A stretch of 64,000 nucleotides of DNA from Halobacillus halophilus DSM 2266 (GTDB lineage Bacteria > Bacillota > Bacilli > Bacillales > Halobacillaceae), in contig NC_017668.1 in NCBI RefSeq assembly GCF_000284515.1, positions 1,364,001-1,428,000 on the forward strand, written 5' to 3'. The notes beneath the pieces are model-generated. The model ran no database searches and was not told the origin of the DNA. It worked only from the letters and a program-made list of their open reading frames with translations. Positions 6,812 through 18,236 of this stretch are shown piece by piece. Position 1 is the stretch's first letter, and each line of letters starts with the position of its first letter. The translations under genes and the position numbers were made by a program.

Positions 6812-6820
6812 GTGAATGGA

Positions 6821-7606
6821 ATGACCAAAGCGAAAGCTAAATTCAGCGGTAGATTGCAGATGCAGGAAATTGACGTTCACCTGCATGAAGGGACTGTTCA
6901 ATGGGACGGAAGTGTCGATACATCCGAACATACCTGGGATTCCCCGATATCTGGTACGGTTTACGGTACATTACTAAACTATCAAGGTGCACTGGATCAA
7001 ATGGAAGACGCCTTACATCAGGATCCCTACAAATCCCCTCCAAAAGCTCCGATTCTCTATATCAAACCTAAAAACACCATTACGGGTCATCAAACTATGA
7101 TTCCCATGCCGGAAGATGTACCAGAACTTGAAGTGGGAGCCTGTCTTGGCCTGGTTATCGGTGAAAAAGCTTGCCGTGTCAGCGAGGAAGAAGCGATGAG
7201 CTATATTGCGGGCTATACGATTGTTAATGATATGAGTGTTCCGCATGAGAGCGTGTTCAGACCGGCGGTTAAGCACAAAGCACGCGATGGGTTCTGTCCT
7301 GCAGGTCCGTGGATTGTAGAGCGTGATGAAGTACCGGCCCCTGATAATCTTACTATTCGCGTCTATGTGAATGGGGAATGTATGCAGGAAAATCATACTG
7401 GGAATCTCGTTCGTTCGGTTGCGCAGCTGCTTTCAGATGTCACCGAATTTATGACCCTTGAAAAAGGGGATACGCTGCTGGTCGGTATTCCGGAAAATCC
7501 TCCTCGTGTAAAGGATGGGGACCAGATCCGTATTGAAATAGAACAGGTAGGCGTCCTTGAAAATAAGGTAAAAAAAGAAGCAGCCGTAGGAGGGATTAAA
7601 TCATGA
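6821..7606 (+). CDS. hpaG1: HpaG N-terminal-half homologue (FAH family; homoprotocatechuate pathway)
   Basis: This is a fumarylacetoacetate-hydrolase-fold protein of about 261 aa, matching the N-terminal half of enterobacterial HpaG, the bifunctional decarboxylase/isomerase of the 4-hydroxyphenylacetate pathway. Family signatures are GTVYGTLLNYQG, YIKPKNTITGH, SYIAGYTIVNDMSVP and FRPAVKHKARDGFCPAGPW, with metal-binding acidic residues in PELEVGACLGLVIG. An in-frame GTG at 6812 abuts the ribosome binding site, so the ATG at 6821 with 9-base spacing is the better start. Its stop overlaps the next start (ATGA). In E. coli the two halves are one polypeptide; here they are separate genes. Confidence 0.85.
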   Translation: MTKAKAKFSGRLQMQEIDVHLHEGTVQWDGSVDTSEHTWDSPISGTVYGTLLNYQGALDQMEDALHQDPYKSPPKAPILYIKPKNTITGHQTMIPMPEDVPELEVGACLGLVIGEKACRVSEEEAMSYIAGYTIVNDMSVPHESVFRPAVKHKARDGFCPAGPWIVERDEVPAPDNLTIRVYVNGECMQENHTGNLVRSVAQLLSDVTEFMTLEKGDTLLVGIPENPPRVKDGDQIRIEIEQVGVLENKVKKEAAVGGIKS

Positions 7607-8349
7607 AAACGGCACGGGTAGCCTTTGAAGGCGGAATTTATAAGGCAACAGAGCTTTCTGAAGGGATTCAACTGGATAATGGCAGGCAGGTGGCAGAGGA
7701 AGAGGTGGTCTGGCTCCCGCCGATTGAGCCGCAGACCAGCTTTGCGCTTGGATTGAATTATAGTGATCATGCGAGCGAGCTTTCTTTCAAAGCTCCAGAA
7801 GAGCCGCTTGTATTTCTGAAAGGACCCAACACTTTTGTCGGTCACCGGGGCAAAACCTATCGTCCTTCTGATGTGACCCATATGCATTATGAGTGTGAAC
7901 TGGCTGTCGTCATTGGCCGGGAAGCGAAAGGTGTTAAAAAAGAAGAGGCGTACAACTATATTGCAGGTTATACGATTGCCAATGATTATGCGATCCGCGA
8001 TTACCTGGAAAATTACTACCGCCCGAATTTGCGAGTGAAAAACCGTGATCACTGCACACCGATCGGTCCCTGGCTGGTCGATGCCGCAGAAGTTCAAGAT
8101 CCTATGAATCTGGCTTTGCGCACGTATGTGAATGGCGAACTGGTTCAGGAAGGCTCAACGAAGGATATGATTTTTGATATTCCTGATCTTATCGAATACT
8201 TAAGCAGCTTTATGACACTAAGTCCAGGGGATCTTATTTTGACAGGGACTCCAAAAGGGACAGTGGATACAAAAGTAGGAGATGAGGTCATTACAGAGGT
8301 TGAAGGCCTGGGCCGTCTGGTCAATACGATTACCGGGGAGCCAAGCTGA
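7603..8349 (+). CDS. hpaG2: HpaG C-terminal-half homologue (FAH family)
   Basis: This 248-aa FAH-fold enzyme matches the C-terminal half of enterobacterial HpaG. Very similar stretches are ALGLNYSDHASELSF, EEPLVFLKGPNTFVGH, HYECELAVVIGREAKG (metal-binding acids) and DYAIRDYLENYYRPNLRVKNRD, with the GTPKGT loop near the C terminus. With hpaG1 it should carry out the decarboxylation and isomerisation of the ring-cleavage product after HpaE and HpaF. It is coupled to hpaG1 by a 4-base overlap and has AGGAGG upstream. HpaH hydratases belong to the same superfamily, but this sequence is HpaG-like. Confidence 0.87.
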   Translation: MKTARVAFEGGIYKATELSEGIQLDNGRQVAEEEVVWLPPIEPQTSFALGLNYSDHASELSFKAPEEPLVFLKGPNTFVGHRGKTYRPSDVTHMHYECELAVVIGREAKGVKKEEAYNYIAGYTIANDYAIRDYLENYYRPNLRVKNRDHCTPIGPWLVDAAEVQDPMNLALRTYVNGELVQEGSTKDMIFDIPDLIEYLSSFMTLSPGDLILTGTPKGTVDTKVGDEVITEVEGLGRLVNTITGEPS

Positions 8350-8367: not shown

Positions 8368-8748
8368 ATGCCGCATGTGATGGTAGAATACACGGATAAT
8401 CTGAGCTCTCATACGGATATTCAAAGTCTGCTCCATAAGCTGGGCCAGGTGTTAGTAGGACTCGGGGACACGTATCCGGTCGGTGGAATTCGGGTAAGGG
8501 CTCATAAAGTCACAGAGTATCGCATAGCCGATGGGAAAGCAGATGATGCGTTCGTTCATACGACGTTAAAAATAGGCAAAGGCAGAAGTGAAGAAGCGAA
8601 ACAAGCGACCTGCGAAAAACTATTTGATGTGATGAAGGAACACTTTGCTTCGATTTACGAAGAAAAATACTTAGCTTTATCTCTCGAACTAGTAGAATTT
8701 CAGCATAAAACCTATAAACATAATAATATCCATAGCCGGTTTAGATAG
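8368..8748 (+). CDS. hpaF: 5-carboxymethyl-2-hydroxymuconate delta-isomerase
   Basis: This small tautomerase-superfamily enzyme (126 aa, usual length) isomerises 5-carboxymethyl-2-hydroxymuconate. After removal of Met the N-terminal residue is Pro (PHVMVEYTDNL), the general base of the family. A strong AAGGAGG precedes the ATG, 18 bases after hpaG2, so the three genes form an operon. A weak hairpin (GACCT/AGGTC) follows at about 8760. Confidence 0.88.
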   Translation: MPHVMVEYTDNLSSHTDIQSLLHKLGQVLVGLGDTYPVGGIRVRAHKVTEYRIADGKADDAFVHTTLKIGKGRSEEAKQATCEKLFDVMKEHFASIYEEKYLALSLELVEFQHKTYKHNNIHSRFR

Positions 8749-8844: not shown

Positions 8845-8964
8845 ATGTTAGGTATTGAAGATGTGTCTATTGCATTTGTGTGGGTCGCTACTGTGTTGTC
8901 CGCACTTGGCTGTGTCATTTACGGGGCCGTCATGTGGAATCGGGGCGGAGGTGACCGAGAGTGA
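8845..8964 (+). CDS. Small accessory membrane protein of the following symporter
   Basis: This 39-aa single-span protein starts MLGIEDVSIAFVWVATV and ends in a short Gly/Arg tail (NRGGGDRE). AAAGGAGGGCG sits 8 bases before the ATG. Its TGA overlaps the GTG start of the symporter (GTGA), a typical translational coupling. Small one-helix proteins directly upstream of sodium:solute symporter genes are known as symporter small accessory proteins. It is probably a subunit or stability factor of the carrier, though the partner gene is broken here. Confidence 0.75.
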   Translation: MLGIEDVSIAFVWVATVLSALGCVIYGAVMWNRGGGDRE

Positions 8965-10549
8965 ACCTATCTGTCTTAATTCCTTTATGTCTGGCTTATA
9001 TGGCTGTTATGTCGCTGTTAGCGTATTACGGTTATAAAAAGACAACCTCTGAAGCTGACTATCTAGTAGGCGGAAGGAATATTAACCCCGTCGTTATGGC
9101 TTTGTCCTACGGAGCTACATTTATCAGCACGTCCGCCATGGTCGGCTTTGGGGGAGTTGCTTCTATTTATGGATTAAGTCTATTGTGGCTTGCTTTCTTA
9201 AATATTGTACTGGGAATTTTCGTGGCTTTTGCTGTATTTGGCAAAAAGATACGCAGGCTCTCGCTTAAATTAGATGCTTCGACTTTCCCTTCTTTATTAG
9301 GAAAGCATTATGACTCGAAGTTCATTACGGTATTCTCAGGGGTCGTCATTTTCATCTTTATGCCTGCCTATACGAGTATTGTATTGATCGGCGGGGGACG
9401 CTTCAGGAAACCCTGTCGCTGAATTTTAATGCAGCATTACTGATTCTTGCCGTAATTATTGCTCTATACGTAATTGGTGGAGGTATTAAAGCCGTCATGT
9501 ACACCGATGCCTTTGCTGCTGTGATTATGCTCATAGGAATGGCCATCTTCTTATTTGCCAGTTATCAAGCGGTAGGGGGCATTGTGGACGGTCACCAGGC
9601 ATTGGCTTCACTCAAATCGATGGTTCCTGACTCCCTCGCATCCGAGGGCCATCAAGGCTGGACAAGTATGCCGGAACTGGGCTCGCCTATGTGGTGGACA
9701 CTTGTCAGCACGATTATTATGGGCGTTGGTATTGGGGTACTGGCACAGCCTCAGTTAGCGATGCGCTGTATGACCGTAAATAATGACCGCGCTCTTTATC
9801 GTTCTGTTCTTGTGGGTGGAATTTTTATCTTTTTCATGACAGGAGCGGCTTACATGATCGGTCCGCTCAGCAATGTTTATTTTATGGAAACGGCTGGACA
9901 ACTATCGATTAGTGTAGCGGGTGGAAATCCTGACCTTGTTATTCCAAAGTTCATTAACACACTCATGCCCGGTTGGTTTATCTATGTATTTACGCTCACT
10001 CTTCTGTCAGCAACGATTTCTACCGTAAGTTCTCTTATCCATGTACAGGCAAGTGCATTTGGTGAAGATATTTTGAAAACATTGGGCATCCGGTCCGTAT
10101 TAGGAAATGTGATCAGCCCAGCACGTCTTGGTGTCATTGTTGGTGTCATTTTATCTGTGATACTCGCTTATCTTTTACCAGGTGGAGTCATCGCTCAGGC
10201 CACCGCTTTCTGGTTCGGGATTTGCGCTGCCGGATTCCTGCCTGCGTTAGTGGGAGCGTTTTATTGGAAGAAAGCTTCCCGTGCAGGAGCAGTTTACAGT
10301 ATTATGACCGGGTTTGGAGTCAGCATGTTCGGTTTCTTATTTTTGAATGAAAAGCAGTCAGTAGCCTTTGGTCTTTCTGAGGCCCTTTTTGGGAAAGGCT
10401 ATCTTCTTGCTTATCCCTGGACCCATGTAGATCCACTGTTTTATGCTTTACCTCTCTCAACAGCTGTGTTTATTGGTGTAAGTTTGTTCACTTCAAATAG
10501 TCAGATTGAAGAGGAGAGCATTCAAACGGAAAGGGTAAACGCACGATAG
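8961..10549 (+). pseudogene. Sodium:solute symporter (SSS family), frameshifted
   Basis: The two parts (8961-9422 and about 9405-10549) together give a full-length SSS carrier of about 530 aa. The N-terminal part has the YLVGGRNINPVVMALSYGAT region. After FIFMPAYTSIVLIGGGRF the frame shifts near 9404 by the loss of one base, giving a short wrong tail and a stop. Homology resumes in another frame (QETLSLNFNAALL) and continues to the end. The rest is well preserved, so the mutation is recent or a sequencing error. Its place inside the hpa region suggests uptake of 4-hydroxyphenylacetate or a related aromatic acid. If the frameshift is real, that uptake is lost or taken over by another carrier. 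Confidence 0.8.
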
Positions 10550-10728: not shown

Positions 10729-11667
10729 TCAATTCTTATCTACAGTGAATAGATGATCGATAACTGGATTTTCTAAGGAAGTCTTGTTTACTTCGAACAA
10801 TCGAAGCAGCCTTCGGGAAGCTTTCGTTAAATATCGGTCTTTATGCCAGATAATCGCAGCTTCCGCTTCAATATCCGCATTTCTAAACTCATAGCTCTTG
10901 ATATTAGAAAAAAAGAACGCTTCCAAAGTAGAGCGCGGAACAATGGATGCTCCCATTCCATTAGCTACGAGCGATAATAGCATGGTTGGATCTGGGCATT
11001 CACAAATCACATTAGGGTCAAACCCATGCTTCCTGCATTCATCCACGATCAATTCAAATTGTCCCATACCGCTGATGCGGTGCAATAGCATTAACGGAAT
11101 ACCTTTTAAGTCCTCGACCTCCACTTCTGCAGTATCTGCCGGGAACACGTCCCAGTAGGCAGGGGTCACTAATACATAAGGTTCAGGAGAGAGAGGGATC
11201 AATTCAAATTCATCCCGTTCAATTGGCAGGCGGACAACGGCCATTTCAATTTCCCGTCTTCGAATACATTCGGCCAGAAAGTAGGTATCTCCTTCTCTAA
11301 GTTGATAGGTCAGTTGGGGATATTGCTGTCTCATTTGATTTAACGGACCTGTTAAGGACGAAAAGCATGATTTGTTGGAACCTATTTGAAGAGTACCTGT
11401 AATTCCTTCATGGGTCTCCTTAACTTCCACAATCGTTTCCTCTAACTCGTTAAGAATCTGACCTGCTTTTTGGTAGAGCACTTCTCCTGCGCTTGTTAAT
11501 TCGAGTTTACGGCCATGACGGTCAAACAGCTTCAGGTCAAGTTCTTCCTCTATCAATTTAATTTGCTGGCTGAGAGGAGGCTGAGCCATATGCAGCTTTT
11601 TTGCTGCTTTGGTTACTTGCCCTTCCTCAGCCACTGTGCGAAAGTATCGCAATTGCTTAATATCCAT
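10729..11667 (-). CDS. LysR-family transcriptional regulator
   Basis: This 312-aa LysR-type regulator begins MDIKQLRYFRTVAEEGQVTKAA. The N-terminal winged helix-turn-helix contains LHMAQPPLSQQIKLIEEEL, and an effector-binding domain follows (GTLQIGSNKSC to the C terminus). The start at 11667 is chosen because GGGGGAG lies just upstream and the family always starts at this point; a longer open frame upstream has no support. It is divergent from hpaE and sits between the two halves of the hpa cluster, so it is the likely regulator of hpa genes, taking the place of the AraC-type HpaA of enterobacteria. The inducer is unknown; a pathway aromatic acid is expected. Confidence 0.87.
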   Translation of the reverse strand: MDIKQLRYFRTVAEEGQVTKAAKKLHMAQPPLSQQIKLIEEELDLKLFDRHGRKLELTSAGEVLYQKAGQILNELEETIVEVKETHEGITGTLQIGSNKSCFSSLTGPLNQMRQQYPQLTYQLREGDTYFLAECIRRREIEMAVVRLPIERDEFELIPLSPEPYVLVTPAYWDVFPADTAEVEVEDLKGIPLMLLHRISGMGQFELIVDECRKHGFDPNVICECPDPTMLLSLVANGMGASIVPRSTLEAFFFSNIKSYEFRNADIEAEAAIIWHKDRYLTKASRRLLRLFEVNKTSLENPVIDHLFTVDKN

Positions 11668-11843: not shown

Positions 11844-13367
11844 ATGAGTGAACTTACTTTATCAGATATTAACCAGGCAGGAAAACGTGTGATCAAAGAA
11901 GTGAAAGATGTTCAGCTTTACATTGATGGAGCTTTTGTAGATGCGGAAAGTCATAAGCAATTTGATAATTATAACCCTTTTACGAATGAAAAGATCAATA
12001 AAGTGGCTTCTGGAGCGGAAGCGGATATAGACAAAGCGGTGAAAGCTGCAAGGAAAGCTTTTAAGGGAGAGTGGGGAAACCTTTCTCAAAATGAACGGTT
12101 AAGCTACATTTACAAAATTGCAGACTTGATTGATGAGCATATTGAGGAAATTGCTCCGCTTGAATCCTACGATACTGGTCTGCCGATCAGCCAAACGAAA
12201 AAAATGGTCGCTCGCGCTGCTCAGAATTTCAGATTTTACGCAGAGATGGTGAAAAGCCGTCTGGTCGGGGATGCCTACCAGGTGGATCATGACTTTCTCA
12301 ACTACACGATTCACAAGCCCGTTGGAGTAGCGGGGTTAATCACACCCTGGAACGCACCATTCATGCTTGAGACGTGGAAGATTGCACCAGCGCTGGCTAC
12401 CGGAAATACAGTCGTTCTAAAACCGGCCGAATGGTCACCGCTTACAGCGAATCGCTTAGCGGAAATTATTGATAAGGCTGGTCTTCCAGACGGTGTCTTT
12501 AACGTTGTTCATGGATATGGAGAGACGGCCGGGGCATCGTTAGTCGCTCATGAAGATGTGGAGCTGATCTCGTTTACAGGAGAAACGGCGACAGGATCTG
12601 AGATTATGAAAAATGGCGCGGACACGCTCAAACGCTTTTCGATGGAGTTAGGAGGGAAGTCCCCAATCATCGTGTTTGATGATGCAGACTTTGAACGGGC
12701 CATCGATGCCTGCACGTGGGGGATCTTCTCCTTTAACGGGGAACGATGCACGGCAAACTCGAGATTATATGTCCACGAAGACATCGCTTCCGATTTTATC
12801 GCCGCTCTAAAAGATCGAGTGGAGAACATTGTTGTCGGTGACCCCATGAAAGATGATACTCAGGTCGGCCCGTTAATTCATACGAAACACTATGAAAGTG
12901 TGAAAAGCTATCTGGAACTGGCAAAAGAAGAAGGGTGTCAGGTGATCAGCGGATCGGTGCCGGAAGAACACAGCCGCGGCAATTTTGTAGCGCCAACGCT
13001 GCTTCTTAATGCAGATACATCGATGAGAGTGGTACAGGAAGAGATTTTTGGTCCAGTAATTGCTGTGATGACCTTCAAAGATGAAGCGGAAGCGGTTGAT
13101 CTAGCGAATAATGTTCGTTACGGACTGGCGGGCTATGTGTGGACGAAAGATCTTCAGCGCGGTCACCGGGTTGCGCAGGCGGTGGACGCTGGAATGTTGT
13201 GGATCAACTCTCAGAATGTGCGGGATTTGAGGACTCCTTTCGGTGGATCCAAGCACAGTGGAATTGGTCGAGAGGGCGGACATTATGCTTTTGAATTTTA
13301 TACAGAAGTGCAAATCATCCATGTAGCGCTCGGAGATCACCGTATCCCGCAATTCGGAAAAAAATAA
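11844..13367 (+). CDS. hpaE: 5-carboxymethyl-2-hydroxymuconate semialdehyde dehydrogenase
   Basis: This is an NAD-dependent aldehyde dehydrogenase (507 aa) that oxidises the extradiol ring-cleavage product of homoprotocatechuate. The catalytic Cys is in FNGERCTANS and the general-base Glu is in MELGGKSP. The NAD-binding stretch ITPWNAPFML and the C-terminal [13 protein letters not shown] are family hallmarks. The ATG at 11844 follows GGGGGAT; an in-frame ATG at 11814 lies inside the cre site and has no ribosome binding site. It is the first gene of a tight operon running hpaE-B-D-C-ribF-like-dapA-like, with gaps under 25 bases except before hpaC (29 bases). Confidence 0.88.
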   Translation: MSELTLSDINQAGKRVIKEVKDVQLYIDGAFVDAESHKQFDNYNPFTNEKINKVASGAEADIDKAVKAARKAFKGEWGNLSQNERLSYIYKIADLIDEHIEEIAPLESYDTGLPISQTKKMVARAAQNFRFYAEMVKSRLVGDAYQVDHDFLNYTIHKPVGVAGLITPWNAPFMLETWKIAPALATGNTVVLKPAEWSPLTANRLAEIIDKAGLPDGVFNVVHGYGETAGASLVAHEDVELISFTGETATGSEIMKNGADTLKRFSMELGGKSPIIVFDDADFERAIDACTWGIFSFNGERCTANSRLYVHEDIASDFIAALKDRVENIVVGDPMKDDTQVGPLIHTKHYESVKSYLELAKEEGCQVISGSVPEEHSRGNFVAPTLLLNADTSMRVVQEEIFGPVIAVMTFKDEAEAVDLANNVRYGLAGYVWTKDLQRGHRVAQAVDAGMLWINSQNVRDLRTPFGGSKHSGIGREGGHYAFEFYTEVQIIHVALGDHRIPQFGKK

Positions 13368-13385: not shown

Positions 13386-14861
13386 ATGCCAGCGAAAACA
13401 GGTGCTCAATATAAAGAGAAGTTAAAAAATGCTAAGAATAACATCTATATTCACGGTGAGCGTGTCGAGGATCCAACCACTCATCCTGCTTTTAAAAATG
13501 TCGTCCAGTCCATGGCCGAATTATATGACCTCCAATATGAGAAGTCTGAAAAAATGCTCTACACCTCTCCTCAAACGGGCGACAAAGTAGGAATGTCTTT
13601 TTACAGGCCGGAAACCATCGATGATTTGATCAAGCGTCGGGAAGCGATCCAGGAATGGGCACGCCTTTCCGGAGGATTGATGGGACGATCCCCTGACTAT
13701 TTGAATGCAGAAGTAATGGCAATGGGAGTAGCCAATGACTTGTTTGGCGAAGATGACCCGATGTTTGCCGAGAATGCCAAAAATTATTATGACTATGCGC
13801 GGGAAAATGATATCAGCTTGACGCACACCCTGATTCACCCGCAAGTGAACCGTCAAAAAGCCCAGCACGAGCAAAAGGATGCCAATGTAGCGCTTCACCT
13901 CGTTGAGAAACGCTCCGACGGAATCATTGTCGACGGTGCACGTTTACTTGCTACGCAGGGCGGGATTACCGATGAGATCCTCGTCTTCCCTTCAACCGTT
14001 AAAAAGGCTGGCGAGCTCGATGATCCGTATTCTCTTGCCTTTGTGGTACCAAACAATACGCCAGGGCTTAAGTTCATCAGCCGTGAATCCTTTGATAACG
14101 GTAAAAATACCTGGGATCACCCATTAAGCAGCCGTTTTGAAGAGGGCGATGCCATTGTTTACTTTGATCTTGTGTTCGTTCCATGGGAAAAGGTTTTTGT
14201 TTGCGGCAATTCTTCCATTTGTAACCGCACGTTCACAGAGACCAACGCTGTGGTGCATATGTCTCACCAGGTCGTAGCTAAGAACGTGGTCAAAACGGAA
14301 TTCGTGCTTGGGGTTGTTTTGAATCTGATGGAATCCATCGGTATCGACAAGTTCCAGCACGTCCAGGACAAAGGTACCGAAATTATGCTGGCGCTTGAAA
14401 CGATGAAGTCTCACCTTTTCAGGGCCGAGCATAATGCCAAGCTTGATAAATGGGGCACGATGACCCCTGACTTTGATGCTTTGAACGCGGCTAGGAACTG
14501 GTATCCGAGAATTTATCCGCGTCTTGTAGAAATCCTTCGAATACTAGGAGCCTCCGGACTGATGGGCATTCCAACCGAAGAGGATTTCCATCACGAAGAA
14601 ATTGGACCGATTGTCAATCGCGCGCTGCAGTCTAAGAATATGGAAGGCTATGAACGTGTGAAACTCTTCCGCCTTGCGTGGGATCTCACGATGAGTGCCT
14701 TTGGCAGCAGGCAGACGCACTATGAATATTACTTCTTCGGCGATCCTGTGAAAATGGGGATGACTTACTTTGAACAGTTCAACAAAGAACCATATAAGGA
14801 TTACGTACAGGATTTCCTGGAGCAAGTAAAAACGTCCAAACCAAACTATACAAACGTATAA
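13386..14861 (+). CDS. hpaB: 4-hydroxyphenylacetate 3-monooxygenase, oxygenase component
   Basis: This FADH2-dependent aromatic hydroxylase (491 aa) turns 4-hydroxyphenylacetate into 3,4-dihydroxyphenylacetate. Family stretches include the N-terminal GAQYKEKL, the region around GRSPDYLNAEVMAMG, HTLIHPQVNRQ, DGIIVDGARLLATQG and the C-terminal GSRQTHYEYYFFGDP. AAGGAGG precedes the ATG. The reductase partner HpaC is two genes downstream in the same operon. Confidence 0.92.
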   Translation: MPAKTGAQYKEKLKNAKNNIYIHGERVEDPTTHPAFKNVVQSMAELYDLQYEKSEKMLYTSPQTGDKVGMSFYRPETIDDLIKRREAIQEWARLSGGLMGRSPDYLNAEVMAMGVANDLFGEDDPMFAENAKNYYDYARENDISLTHTLIHPQVNRQKAQHEQKDANVALHLVEKRSDGIIVDGARLLATQGGITDEILVFPSTVKKAGELDDPYSLAFVVPNNTPGLKFISRESFDNGKNTWDHPLSSRFEEGDAIVYFDLVFVPWEKVFVCGNSSICNRTFTETNAVVHMSHQVVAKNVVKTEFVLGVVLNLMESIGIDKFQHVQDKGTEIMLALETMKSHLFRAEHNAKLDKWGTMTPDFDALNAARNWYPRIYPRLVEILRILGASGLMGIPTEEDFHHEEIGPIVNRALQSKNMEGYERVKLFRLAWDLTMSAFGSRQTHYEYYFFGDPVKMGMTYFEQFNKEPYKDYVQDFLEQVKTSKPNYTNV

Positions 14862-14873
14862 GGAGTGAAGACA

Positions 14874-15854
14874 ATGGATTTTGATATCATCCGTGCGGGC
14901 CGGGCCGTTTTACATGTCACAGACTTAGAGAAATCAAGAGCTTTCTATGAAGCTCTTGGTTTCATAGAAACAGCGTCAGATGATGAACAAATTTTTTTCC
15001 GGGGGCTTGAAGAGCATAATCACCATAGTCTTGTTCTGAAGAAAAGAGAGAGTCCTGCTGTAGAAGTGATCAGCTATAAAGTGAAATCTGAGAAAGACAT
15101 CGATCAATTGGCTGCTTTCTATGAGAAGCAGGGCACCGAATTGAAATGGATGGAAGCAGGGTCCCAAGAAGCCGTTGGGCGCGCGCTGAGAATTCAGGAT
15201 CCATCTGGTTTACCTGTAGAGTACTATGCGGAAATGGATCAGGCGGAACGAATGATTCAGAAGTATCACCATCATAAAGGTGCAAAAGTGCAGCGGATTG
15301 ACCATTTTAACTGCATGGTTACCGATGTAGAAAAAGCATACGATCATTATATCAATCAGTTAGGCTTTGCCTGTTCGGAATATACCGAAGGGGAAGAAAA
15401 GAAAATCTGGGCAGCCTGGCTGCACCGTAAACCAAGTGTCCACGATGTAGCTTATATGAATGGTCTTGGACCAAGGCTCCACCATATCGGTTTCTGGTTA
15501 AAAGACCCGATGAATTTGATCGATGGCTGTGATGTGCTTGCATCGATGGGTTACGGTCCAGCGATTGAACGCGGTCCTGGACGGCACGGTTTATCCAATG
15601 CGCTCTTTCTTTACTTGCGGGATCCGGATGGTCATCGTATCGAACTCTATAACGGAGATTATTTAACAAGTGACCCTGACTTCAAACCGGTCCGCTGGGA
15701 TCTGGATGACCCAATGCGTCAGACGTTTTGGGGACACGAAGCACCAGACAGCTGGTTTGATGAAGCCTCAGAAGTCCTCGATGTTCATTCCAATAAAAAA
15801 GTAACGCTGACAGAGCCGAAATTGAAAAAACGCAAGCCGACGTTTGTAACTTGA
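14874..15854 (+). CDS. hpaD: 3,4-dihydroxyphenylacetate 2,3-dioxygenase (type I extradiol)
   Basis: This two-domain vicinal-oxygen-chelate dioxygenase (326 aa) cleaves homoprotocatechuate. The N-terminal module starts with GRAVLHVTDLEKSRAFYEAL. In the C-terminal module the metal ligands are expected at His in RIDHFNCMV, His in LHHIGFWL and Glu in DGHRIELYNGDY. It matches the Gram-positive HpaD type (VOC fold) rather than the E. coli LigB-fold enzyme. The ATG at 14874 is chosen because an upstream in-frame GTG lies within the AAGGAG. Confidence 0.9.
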   Translation: MDFDIIRAGRAVLHVTDLEKSRAFYEALGFIETASDDEQIFFRGLEEHNHHSLVLKKRESPAVEVISYKVKSEKDIDQLAAFYEKQGTELKWMEAGSQEAVGRALRIQDPSGLPVEYYAEMDQAERMIQKYHHHKGAKVQRIDHFNCMVTDVEKAYDHYINQLGFACSEYTEGEEKKIWAAWLHRKPSVHDVAYMNGLGPRLHHIGFWLKDPMNLIDGCDVLASMGYGPAIERGPGRHGLSNALFLYLRDPDGHRIELYNGDYLTSDPDFKPVRWDLDDPMRQTFWGHEAPDSWFDEASEVLDVHSNKKVTLTEPKLKKRKPTFVT

Positions 15855-15883
15855 GTAAGAAAAATTAACTAGAGGTGATGAGG

Positions 15884-16342
15884 ATGGACAATCGAATGTT
15901 CCGAACAGCCATGGGGAAGTTTACGACGGGAGTAACGGTGATTGTGGCAGAAGTTGATGGGCAGGTGCATGGCATGACCGCCAATGCGTTTATGTCAGTC
16001 TCCCTTGATCCGAAGCTTATTCTGGTTTCCATCGACAAAAAAGCCAAAATGAATGAAGTGATTCAAAGGTCTAATCAATTCACCGTTAATATTCTCTCTG
16101 GCAATCAAAAGGAAATGTCGATGATTTTTGCAGGCCAAATTAAAGAAGATAAACAGGTGGAATTTGAAACGGTCGAAGGTCTTCCCGTCATTAAAGATTC
16201 CCTTGTCAGCCTTGTATGTAATGTCTATCAGGACCATGAGGCAGGGGACCACACCCTTTATATAGGCGAAGTGATCAATTTAAATGTTCAAGATGGGGAC
16301 CCGCTTGCGTTTTACGAAGGTAAATACATGCAAATGACATAA
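15884..16342 (+). CDS. hpaC: Flavin reductase, 4-HPA monooxygenase reductase component
   Basis: This 152-aa NAD(P)H:flavin oxidoreductase of the HpaC/flavin-reductase-like family supplies FADH2 to HpaB. The N terminus (FRTAMGKFTTGVTVI) and the conserved HGMTANAFMSVSLDPKLILVS region are typical, as is GDHTLYIGEV near the C terminus. Two earlier in-frame starts fall inside the AGAGGTG, so the ATG at 15884 is preferred. Confidence 0.9.
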   Translation: MDNRMFRTAMGKFTTGVTVIVAEVDGQVHGMTANAFMSVSLDPKLILVSIDKKAKMNEVIQRSNQFTVNILSGNQKEMSMIFAGQIKEDKQVEFETVEGLPVIKDSLVSLVCNVYQDHEAGDHTLYIGEVINLNVQDGDPLAFYEGKYMQMT

Positions 16343-16360: not shown

Positions 16361-17236
16361 ATGATCACTATCGCTATCACACACCCGATTGCACCATCCA
16401 TTCAAGAGAACAGTCCGTCCTGTGTCCTGGCTTTAGGATTCTTTGACGGTGTGCACTTAGGCCATCAGAAGATTATTCGTACAGCGAAGAAGATAGCTAA
16501 AGATAAGGGGTTAAAACTTGCAGCTATGACCTTTGCCCAACATCCCTCTTCGGTTATTCCGAAAGGCCCGACTATTACTAGATTTATAACGCCGCTTTCT
16601 GCAAAAGCGAAAATCTTTGAGCAGCTTGGCGTTGATATCCTTTATGTTGTTGATTTTACCAAGGAGCTGGCCCAAGTTCCTCACCAGCAATTTGTGGATC
16701 AATATCTATGCGGACTCAACAGTAAGCACGTCGTTGCCGGATTTGATTATAAATATGGATTCAAAGGCAAGGGTGATATGAATCAACTGCCTGTAGATAG
16801 TAAAGGGCGATTTGGAATCACGACGGTTTCAAAATTTGAGAAGCATGAGCAAAAAGTAAGCTCTACTCTTTTGAGGACGCTTATTTCTACGGGCAGGGTT
16901 GAAGAGGTTCCCCACTATCTCGGAAAAAGCTATGAAATGGCGGGCAAAGCGGAAGGCAAAGGAAAAACCTGTACATTTTCTTTTGACCCTTCTTACTATA
17001 TGCCGGTCCCCGGGCATTACGAAGTGACCGTAAAGAGTGATCTATATCAAGCGAAAGGGATGTGTGAGATCAAATCGATTTACAGTCCGGGAGAGCTTAC
17101 GGTCACCTTGTTTGAGGACACTCTATACCAAGATTTTGAGAATGCCACGCTGCAGTGGAACAATTTCATTGCCGACTTTGAAATGGACATTCTTCATGCC
17201 CAGGGAGATTTACGAGAATTAGAGATGAGTATGTAA
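16361..17236 (+). CDS. RibF-like FMN adenylyltransferase with degenerate kinase domain
   Basis: This 291-aa protein is homologous to the bifunctional riboflavin kinase/FAD synthetase RibF. The N-terminal nucleotidyltransferase half is well kept: GFFDGVHLGHQKII, TFAQHPSSVIP and VAGFDYKYGFKGKGD are diagnostic, and SSTLLRTLISTG closes the domain. The C-terminal half keeps the spacing of the kinase domain (YLGKSYEMAGKAEGKGK, PGHYEV) but lacks the GFPTAN motif that binds ATP and Mg in riboflavin kinases. It should therefore make FAD from FMN but not phosphorylate riboflavin. It sits directly after hpaC, with AAGGAGGAGG upstream, so it probably boosts the FAD supply for HpaB/HpaC. The housekeeping RibF should lie elsewhere. 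Confidence 0.78.
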   Translation: MITIAITHPIAPSIQENSPSCVLALGFFDGVHLGHQKIIRTAKKIAKDKGLKLAAMTFAQHPSSVIPKGPTITRFITPLSAKAKIFEQLGVDILYVVDFTKELAQVPHQQFVDQYLCGLNSKHVVAGFDYKYGFKGKGDMNQLPVDSKGRFGITTVSKFEKHEQKVSSTLLRTLISTGRVEEVPHYLGKSYEMAGKAEGKGKTCTFSFDPSYYMPVPGHYEVTVKSDLYQAKGMCEIKSIYSPGELTVTLFEDTLYQDFENATLQWNNFIADFEMDILHAQGDLRELEMSM

Positions 17237-17258: not shown

Positions 17259-18176
17259 ATGAGAGATTATCAAGAGATAAAATCAAAGTTAAGAGGTTCG
17301 GTTACACCTGTGATCACACCCTTTAAAGCAAATCATGACATTGATTTTGATACCTTTTCAAGTCTCATTGAATTTCAATTGGAGAATGGCACCCATGCGA
17401 TTTCAGTTACCGGAACATCGGGGGAACCCAGCTCGTTAACAGAGGAGGAACGCGTGGAGGTCATGAGGACTGCATACAAGACCATTAATGGCCGAGTTCC
17501 GTTTGTACCGGGAACAGGGTCCACCAATCACGATGAGACGATGCGCCTGACGAAAAAGGCAGAAGAGATCGGAGCCGATGCGGCGATGGTTATCGTGCCT
17601 TACTACAACAAGTCGAATCAGCAGGCGTTATACAAGCACTTCAAAACGGTCGCAGACGCTGTAGAGATTCCGATTATTGTGTATAACATTCCGGGACGTA
17701 CCGCCCAGAACCTGCATGTTGATACATTAGCTCAGCTGAGCAAAGACTGTCCGAACATTATCGGTGTAAAAGAATCAAACAAAGACTTCGAACACGTCAA
17801 TCGTGTGCTACTCAAATGTGGCCGTGATTTTCTGCTGTTCTCGGGTATCGAACTGCTTTGCTATCCGATGCTTGCGATTGGCGGAGTAGGATCTGTCAGT
17901 GCCACAGCGAATGTCCTGCCAGGAAAAGTAGCTCAGATGCACGATGCCTGGTTCGACGGGGATGTAGCCACCGCCCAAAAACTCCATTATGAATTAATGG
18001 AGCTGAACGATGTCCTGTTTAAAGATACGAATCCAGCACCTGTGAAAGCGGCCCTTGGGATGATGGGCAAAATTGAACCTCATTTAAGGCTGCCGATGGA
18101 TCTTCCATCTGAGGAACTGCAGAATGAGATTCGTGAGACTTTGAATAAATATGGTGTCAGCCTGCAATATGTATAA
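17259..18176 (+). CDS. DapA-family Schiff-base aldolase, end of hpa operon
   Basis: This class I pyruvate-dependent aldolase of the DHDPS/NAL superfamily (305 aa) starts KLRGSVTPVITPF. TGTSGEPSSLTEEER is the GTTGE-like carboxylate loop, the catalytic Tyr is in IVYNIPGRTAQN and the Schiff-base Lys is in IIGVKESNKD. In the hpa pathway the last step normally uses HpaI, a class II enzyme, after hydration by HpaH; neither gene is present. This protein, tightly linked to hpaC and the RibF-like gene, probably cleaves the C7 oxo-dioate to pyruvate and succinic semialdehyde. The superfamily includes hydratase-aldolases (NahE type), so it might also do the HpaH step. A true DapA role is less likely in this context. 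Confidence 0.75.
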   Translation: MRDYQEIKSKLRGSVTPVITPFKANHDIDFDTFSSLIEFQLENGTHAISVTGTSGEPSSLTEEERVEVMRTAYKTINGRVPFVPGTGSTNHDETMRLTKKAEEIGADAAMVIVPYYNKSNQQALYKHFKTVADAVEIPIIVYNIPGRTAQNLHVDTLAQLSKDCPNIIGVKESNKDFEHVNRVLLKCGRDFLLFSGIELLCYPMLAIGGVGSVSATANVLPGKVAQMHDAWFDGDVATAQKLHYELMELNDVLFKDTNPAPVKAALGMMGKIEPHLRLPMDLPSEELQNEIRETLNKYGVSLQYV

Positions 18177-18184
18177 GTGAGTGA

Positions 18185-18236
18185 TAAAAAGCGGTTTCTT
18201 TCCTATGAATAAATGGAAAGAACCGTTTTATTTTTT
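18185..18236 (+). terminator. Rho-independent terminator of the hpaE operon
   Basis: AAAAAGCGGTTTCTTTCC pairs, with single bulges, with GGAAAGAACCGTTTTA, and a T run follows. Confidence 0.85.

Follow-up and report, generated by a model that had tools for sequence, protein, structure and literature searches.

How the homoprotocatechuate pathway ends in Halobacillus halophilus is the question raised by the stretch of 64,000 nucleotides analysed here (the window). An initial annotation recognized the earlier steps of the pathway, HpaB, C, D, E, F and a split G, without the hydratase HpaH or the aldolase HpaI in the cluster, and suggested that a DapA-superfamily aldolase at the end of the operon might perform both missing steps. 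In E. coli and A. baumannii the same two reactions, at the same place in the pathway, fall to HpaH and HpaI (HpcG and HpcH), which are two unrelated metal-dependent proteins, whereas the window offers a single class I protein. The hydratase of the HpaH/HpcG type is Mn-dependent (PMC12718150), and HpaI/HpcH is a class II aldolase (PMC7610986).

Overall, judging from the sequence comparisons presented here, the DapA-like protein is probably a bifunctional class I hydratase-aldolase that performs the last two steps of the homoprotocatechuate pathway. Three observations support this reading: HpaH and HpaI are not found over cut-off, one gene is swapped for two across lineages, and the Schiff-base lysine and the other catalytic residues of dihydrodipicolinate synthase (DHDPS, DapA) are kept.

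The DapA-like gene and its operon

The DapA-like gene (Table 1) is a real gene; it encodes 305 amino acids, begins with ATG and has a GGAGGA-type ribosome site. In profile searches its product scored 503.5 bits against TIGR02313 (HpaI-NOT-DapA; cut-off 396.7), of which it is a member, 302 bits against TIGR00674 (dapA), also over the cut-off of 206, and 285.6 bits against the Pfam DHDPS family.

Table 1. Features of the hpa region, in coordinates of the window
Feature	Position	Strand	Basis
HpaG1 (TIGR02305), FAH-domain isomerase/decarboxylase subunit	6812..7606	+	HpaG-N 288 bits, over cut-off
HpaG2 (TIGR02303), FAH-domain isomerase/decarboxylase subunit	7603..8349	+	HpaG-C 414 bits, over cut-off
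HpaF, 5-carboxymethyl-2-hydroxymuconate isomerase homologue	8368..8748	+	122 bits, curated cut-off 215
LysR-type regulator, divergent	10729..11667	-	family match from residue 55 of longest ORF
HpaE, CHMS dehydrogenase	11844..13367	+	803 bits; ORF open from 11814, ATG 11844
HpaB (TIGR02309), 4-HPA 3-monooxygenase oxygenase	13386..14861	+	790 bits, over cut-off
HpaD (TIGR02295), homoprotocatechuate 2,3-dioxygenase	14865..15854	+	452 bits, over cut-off
HpaC-type flavin reductase	15875..16342	+	best two models 140, 132 bits; cut-off 200
FAD-synthetase-like protein (PF06574), in operon	16361..17236	+	Pfam match
DapA-superfamily protein (TIGR02313), proposed hydratase-aldolase for 2-oxohept-3-ene-1,7-dioate (OHED)	17259..18176	+	profile, alignment, model
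Hairpin then T-rich run, probable terminator, just 3' of aldolase gene	18188..18230	+	

The genes HpaE-HpaB-HpaD-HpaC-FAD synthetase-DapA-like form one run with gaps of 3-22 bases. Some 3 kb upstream of HpaE, past a split symporter gene and the divergent LysR gene, come HpaG1, G2 and F. The gene content first reported stands, with HpaB, D, E and G over cut-off; the HpaF and HpaC-type matches fall under their curated cut-offs yet are, judged by sequence, clear homologues. A Schiff-base aldolase had been said to close the operon, with its lysine in the motif GVKESNKD, and this too was borne out: the lysine is K171 and corresponds in alignment to K161, which forms the Schiff base in E. coli DapA, and a terminator-like hairpin follows the gene.

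Two further observations concern the neighbouring genes. The symporter ORFs at 8961-9422 and 9497-10549 match consecutive parts (positions 1-111 and 144-406) of a single sodium:solute symporter profile, and the transporter gene of the hpa region therefore looks broken. The FAD-synthetase-like gene adjoins the flavin reductase gene, and a similar gene occurs in 15 of 56 loci of the order; its product may supply FAD for HpaB/HpaC.

HpaH and HpaI in the genome and in the order

The absence of HpaH and HpaI extends from the cluster to the whole genome (4.17 Mb, 3 contigs, completeness 100), where neither was found over cut-off. Genome-wide, TIGR02312 (HpaH) had zero matches at E<=1e-3, TIGR02311 (HpaI) had none at E<=1e-40, and the HpaI family PF03328 had a single match, under its gathering score. 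Four FAH-domain proteins were found, namely HpaG1, HpaG2 and two outside the operon; the latter two match HpaG-type or other FAH hydrolase models under cut-off, with no match to HpaH. The genome also carries two further dapA genes, which score 354 and 351 bits against TIGR00674.

Among 249 genomes of the order, that of H. halophilus included, HpaD was over cut-off in 57 and TIGR02313 in 55, every one of them among the 57, and HpaH or HpaI was over cut-off in 0 of the 249. HpaH-like proteins under the HpaH cut-off (E<=1e-20) occur in 73 of the 249 genomes and in 20 of the 55 with TIGR02313; the other 35 of the 55, H. halophilus included, have no HpaH-like protein at that threshold. Four other genomes of the same genus in the sample have neither HpaD nor TIGR02313, and the pathway is thus sporadic in the genus.

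Two of the 249 genomes, G203 and G197, have HpaD without TIGR02313. The first is a fragmented assembly of 480 contigs with F, G2, G1, D, C, FAD synthetase and B on a single 14.3-kb contig; TIGR02313 was not found in this HPA cluster (the first 12 kb of the contig were inspected), and other contigs hold a DmpE-type gene and an HpaI-like gene whose product, 33% identical to E. coli HpaI, falls short of the family cut-off. In G197 an HpaD match that is weak and interrupted by two TAG codons lies beside a DmpE-type gene and probably belongs to a different meta-cleavage pathway.

One gene exchanged for two

By their DapA-like gene we collected 137 loci: the window and 55 stretches of the order (56 together), and 81 actinobacterial loci, consisting of L055 and the best 80 of at least 562 relatives. 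E. coli HpaH or HpaI was the best match in 0 of these 137 loci (tblastn, E<=1e-6). HpaE was present in 56 of 56 loci of the order and in 76 of the 81 actinobacterial loci so ranked, and an FAH gene in 45 of 56 and 78 of 81. In four of the 56 order loci, belonging to one family (L181, L185, L188, L190), the DapA-type HPA locus adjoins Dmp/catechol-type genes, with DmpE/DmpG/DmpH neighbours in three and DmpH in the fourth; DmpE is an HpaH-like hydratase.

When HpaH was used to choose the loci instead, 15 were obtained: one from E. coli BL21 and 14 on plasmids, the latter picked among the 40 entries listed out of 227 records. They come from Deinococcus, Streptomyces, Arthrobacter, Burkholderia, rhizobia and others; three are from Deinococcus and two from Actinomycetes. 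HpaI stood at most three genes away in all 15 and a DapA-like gene was present in none; ten were clusters with HpaE, and the other five were HpaH-HpaI pairs in other or partial surroundings. HpaH and HpaI are thus present in all three Deinococcus plasmid loci. Two of the 14 control genomes, those of Thermus composti and Deinobacterium chartae, carry TIGR02313, HpaD and HpaE, all over cut-off, with no HpaH (E<=1e-3) and no TIGR02311 (E<=1e-40); some PF03328 member is present in D. chartae. Another control genome, that of Sulfolobus acidocaldarius, has an HpaD-type gene over cut-off, with TIGR02313 not over cut-off.

Loci can also be chosen by a gene common to both cluster types. A search with HpaE (TIGR02299) of 316 genomes of Actinomycetes, the class of an Arthrobacter (G274), gave 23 places in 22 genomes, 22 of them over cut-off; the 23rd, L231, is a Dmp cluster under the HpaE cut-off and was excluded from the 22. 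Seven of the 22 clusters have the arrangement FAH-RraA-DapA-HpaE-HpaD without HpaH/HpaI, and fifteen have FAH-RraA-HpaE-HpaD with HpaH-HpaI nearby and no DapA-like gene. FAH, RraA, HpaE and HpaD are present in 22 of 22; both types together, and neither type, were each seen in 0. The DapA-like gene therefore alternates with the HpaH+HpaI pair and, in these 22 actinobacterial clusters, never with HpaI alone. Arthrobacter itself has both types, L120/L212 with DapA and L199 with HpaH-HpaI. One of the DapA-type places (L212) is in the genome at the centre of the HpaE sample, and two others (L211 and L215) are clusters of a single genome. A simple chance figure for the split of 7 against 15 is 1 in 170,544, which is not to be taken as a probability because the clusters are related.

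A careful HpaE tree takes this relatedness into account. It holds 77 rows of 175 loci: eleven loci lacked a sufficiently long and high-scoring HpaE, every third row was taken from the order and from the 81 actinobacterial loci, and L231 was removed. Its well-supported branches force five changes of cluster type, and in 5 of 5 independent pairs HpaH and HpaI both run counter to the DapA-like gene; a sign test on these pairs gives p 0.0625, and at least six pairs would be needed to reach 0.05. A quick tree that included L231 forced only three changes; its automatic labels flagged four order loci as HpaH from their Dmp-type neighbours, and these were counted as DapA-type. The changes, which are unpolarised, always set one DapA-like gene against the HpaH+HpaI pair. 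Thus the earlier proposal that one protein stands in for both HpaH and HpaI gains the support of the 22 clusters and the five pairs, that is, of genomic comparison.

These patterns bear directly on a narrower reading, in which the DapA-like protein replaces the aldolase HpaI only and the hydratase is encoded elsewhere, being of MhpD/DmpE type or another kind of FAH protein. In its favour, the description of TIGR02313 mentions an aldolase and nothing more, H. halophilus does have two FAH proteins outside the operon, and HpaH-like proteins under the HpaH cut-off occur in the 20 order genomes mentioned above and, at E<=1e-10, in 18 of 29 actinobacterial genomes (those of 30 of the 81 loci, L055 and the best 80 of at least 562). 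However, nothing HpaH-like was found in the remaining 35 order genomes or 11 actinobacterial genomes at the same thresholds, the two FAH proteins of H. halophilus resemble HpaG-type and other FAH hydrolases rather than HpaH, and HpaH is missing from the cluster with the DapA-like gene in all five independent pairs. We consider the replacement of HpaI alone to be unlikely.

Some relatives of the DapA-like gene lie in other surroundings. The genes of five close relatives of the actinobacterial protein (L054, L079, L110, L130 and L133) are near FAH and LysR genes without HpaE/HpaD matches, two of them (L054 and L110) also near a flavin reductase, which suggests a role in another pathway. A Paraburkholderia DapA-like protein annotated hpaI_2 (L056, 7989-8882) scores 304 bits against TIGR02313, under cut-off, and its gene, which is not part of an hpa cluster, has a cupin gene next to it and one for a ring-hydroxylating dioxygenase nearby.

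Candidates for the hydration

If another protein hydrated OHED in clusters with the DapA-like gene, it might differ between the two cluster types or be encoded by an additional gene. The DapA-type actinobacterial set used here has 88 rows, in which L101, L118 and L120 are the same places as L211, L215 and L212, so that at least three of the 88 are repeats. Between DapA-type and HpaH/HpaI-type Actinomycetes, neither a disjoint nor a near-fixed alignment column was found in FAH (82 against 15 rows), RraA (81 against 16) or HpaD (70 against 16); HpaE (82 against 16) has no disjoint column and one near-fixed.

To look for additional genes, we compared the ORFs of 11 seed loci with both DapA-type sets, the 88 from Actinomycetes and the 56 from the order, and considered the 12 highest-ranked seed ORFs out of 162 and the 12 highest-ranked out of 45. 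The top extra gene among these best-ranked ORFs encodes a GntR regulator, found in 60-61 of 88 loci, in 16 of 16 HpaH/HpaI-type controls and in 28 of 56. Several other top ORFs are antisense frames of GntR or of the HpaD end (six places checked), the next real gene encodes an alpha/beta hydrolase (26 of 88 DapA-type and 3 of 16 HpaH/HpaI-type), and each remaining best-ranked extra gene in the order loci occurs in at most 8 of 56. No further conserved enzyme gene tracking the exchange of HpaH+HpaI for DapA was found among the best-ranked ORFs.

Most actinobacterial HPA loci, of both cluster types, have an FAH protein with an RraA-like partner, and no match to HpaF. RraA is present in 75 of the 81 actinobacterial loci (L055 and the best 80 of at least 562) and in 22 of 22 HpaE-chosen clusters; in Embleya the FAH and RraA-like parts are joined in one ORF (L055, 8187-9998). 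As the aldolase of these clusters RraA was rejected, since it is equally present in the 15 clusters with HpaI. It may be the decarboxylase of the actinobacterial HPA clusters.

HpaH and HpaG are both members of the broad FAH superfamily, and one could suppose that HpaG1/G2, or the actinobacterial FAH-RraA pair, hydrate OHED and leave the aldol cleavage to the DapA-like protein. The frequency of the FAH gene in both sets of DapA-chosen loci (45 of 56; 78 of 81, these being L055 and the best 80 of at least 562) would suit such a division of labour. However, no separating or near-fixed column distinguishes the FAH and RraA of one actinobacterial cluster type from those of the other, and in Acinetobacter the hpcG1/hpcG2 products do not replace the hydratase in vitro (PMC12718150). 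The one-pot reconstitution without hydratase described there accumulates di-acids and gives no pyruvate, despite the presence of the hpcG1/hpcG2 products and the aldolase, and the hydratase requires a divalent metal (PMC12718150). In Acinetobacter, therefore, the missing step is made good neither by spontaneous hydration nor by HpaG-type proteins; spontaneous hydration was set aside on this ground, and we regard hydration by HpaG or the FAH-RraA pair as very improbable.

Active site, structure and protein tree

The window protein aligns with E. coli DapA at K171=K161, Y142=Y133, Y116=Y107, T53=T44 and R147=R138. The positions that are catalytic in DHDPS, T53 (S in Actinomycetes), Y116, Y142, R147, K171, G196 and N258, are all kept. 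K171 and Y142 have a share of 1.00 (to two decimals) in the 56 order rows and the 88 actinobacterial HPA-type rows. Residues more than 90% constant in both of these HPA-type groups but not found in E. coli DapA or the two DapA of H. halophilus include P57, I197-E198-L199, C201 and A215; in superfamily members the segment 197-201 is on the substrate side. NahE has W at DHDPS position 107 and A at 138, where the window protein has Y and R, and the retained R147 fits a substrate with a distal carboxylate. With the DHDPS set kept and little likeness to NahE beyond the lysine and tyrosine, these residues do not reveal hydratase ability: on sequence they would neither prove nor exclude hydration, and a hydratase would not be separable from a plain aldolase by them.

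The AlphaFold2 model of the protein has a mean pLDDT of 92.7, and its Foldseek matches are DHDPS structures, the best being 2ehh with a TM of 0.94. In a first protein tree NahE, NanA and YagE had branch lengths of 7.6-10 (NahE 10), which made their placement unusable, and they were therefore left out of a second. There the two DapA of H. halophilus and E. coli DapA group together (100/98) with the window protein outside, so that, against these three DapA references, no strict clustering with housekeeping DapA was found. The HPA-type proteins of the order and the Actinomycetes form one clade at 87/53, weak support for a common ancestry. Four actinobacterial relatives were scored: L055 and L120, which come from HPA clusters, and L054 and L110, whose surroundings are different. 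Their 334-345 bits exceed the dapA cut-off and fall short of the 396.7 required by TIGR02313.

An ordinary dihydrodipicolinate synthase of lysine biosynthesis, in the operon by chance, would account for the fold, the catalytic residues and a score above the dapA cut-off. Against it stand the far higher score to TIGR02313, the two other dapA genes of the genome at 351-354 bits, and the presence of HpaD in 55 of 55 TIGR02313 genomes of the order. In addition, DHDPS positions 48, 187, 188, 189, 191 and 205 differ from both E. coli DapA and the organism's own two DapA and are more than 90% constant in the HPA-type groups. A housekeeping synthase placed here by chance is scarcely credible.

Discussion

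In the mechanism we propose for the bifunctional hydratase-aldolase, HpaG1/G2 would supply OHED, whose C2 keto group would react with Lys171 to give a Schiff base. The iminium so formed, being conjugated, would activate C4 for the addition of water. Retro-aldol cleavage of the resulting 4-hydroxy-2-iminio intermediate, in which Tyr142 would serve as acid/base, would then release succinic semialdehyde and, after hydrolysis, pyruvate. Arg147 would hold the C7 carboxylate; in DHDPS the equivalent arginine (R138) holds the carboxylate of aspartate semialdehyde. Apart from the missing amino group, the proposed cleavage is a DHDPS-like aldol addition run backwards. The window protein shares with DHDPS its fold and catalytic residues; it differs at constant positions, for example in having I197-E198-L199 for D187-D188-A189 of E. 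coli, and in its genomic context. As a class I enzyme it would not be expected to need a metal.

NahE and PhdJ hydrate and then cleave an unsaturated 2-oxo acid, the chemistry proposed here. With these enzymes (6dao, 9frt, 6dan) the window protein has in common the superfamily, the Schiff-base lysine and the active-site tyrosine, and to this extent the link drawn to them by the initial annotation is sound, with Lys and Tyr aligned. It is not, however, a close relative: identity to NahE is 30% over 157 residues, NahE has no equivalents of R138 and Y107, and the substrate of NahE/PhdJ is aromatic, whereas the one proposed here is aliphatic and dicarboxylic. The proposed hydratase-aldolase activity of the HPA clusters probably arose independently of NahE/PhdJ.

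That the pathway variant is new can be maintained in part. By score and by its place in an HPA operon the window protein is a member of TIGR02313 (2,4-dihydroxyhept-2-ene-1,7-dioic acid aldolase), and since NCBIfam files it as HpaI-NOT-DapA, the replacement of HpaI alone is already known. The name and description line of that family cover aldol cleavage only, whereas hydration is also proposed here, and the four actinobacterial counterparts scored fall under its cut-off. The hydratase half is supported by comparison, and in the open-licence PMC literature we found no paper describing a hydratase-aldolase in homoprotocatechuate breakdown; within that literature, both the hydratase function and the repeated swapping of one gene for two appear to be novel.

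More generally, we think it likely that a DHDPS-derived hydratase-aldolase, independent of NahE/PhdJ, is a common end of this pathway that has been exchanged repeatedly with the metal-dependent HpaH+HpaI pair, one gene for two, five times on the careful HpaE tree. It would be the usual end in the order of H. halophilus and would occur in many Actinomycetota and some Deinococcota; members from Actinomycetota, where those tested lie under the TIGR02313 cut-off and over that of dapA, would be at risk of being named dapA.

The hydratase-aldolase reading accounts for the recurrent lack of a hydratase in this pathway, seen in several lineages, and assigns a definite role to proteins that could readily be mislabelled dapA. 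If it is true, the DHDPS superfamily would contain a second lineage of hydratase-aldolases, and the HPA clusters would be a clear example from nature of two metal-dependent enzymes displaced by one. The protein might also serve as a single biocatalyst for forming C-C bonds with succinic semialdehyde.
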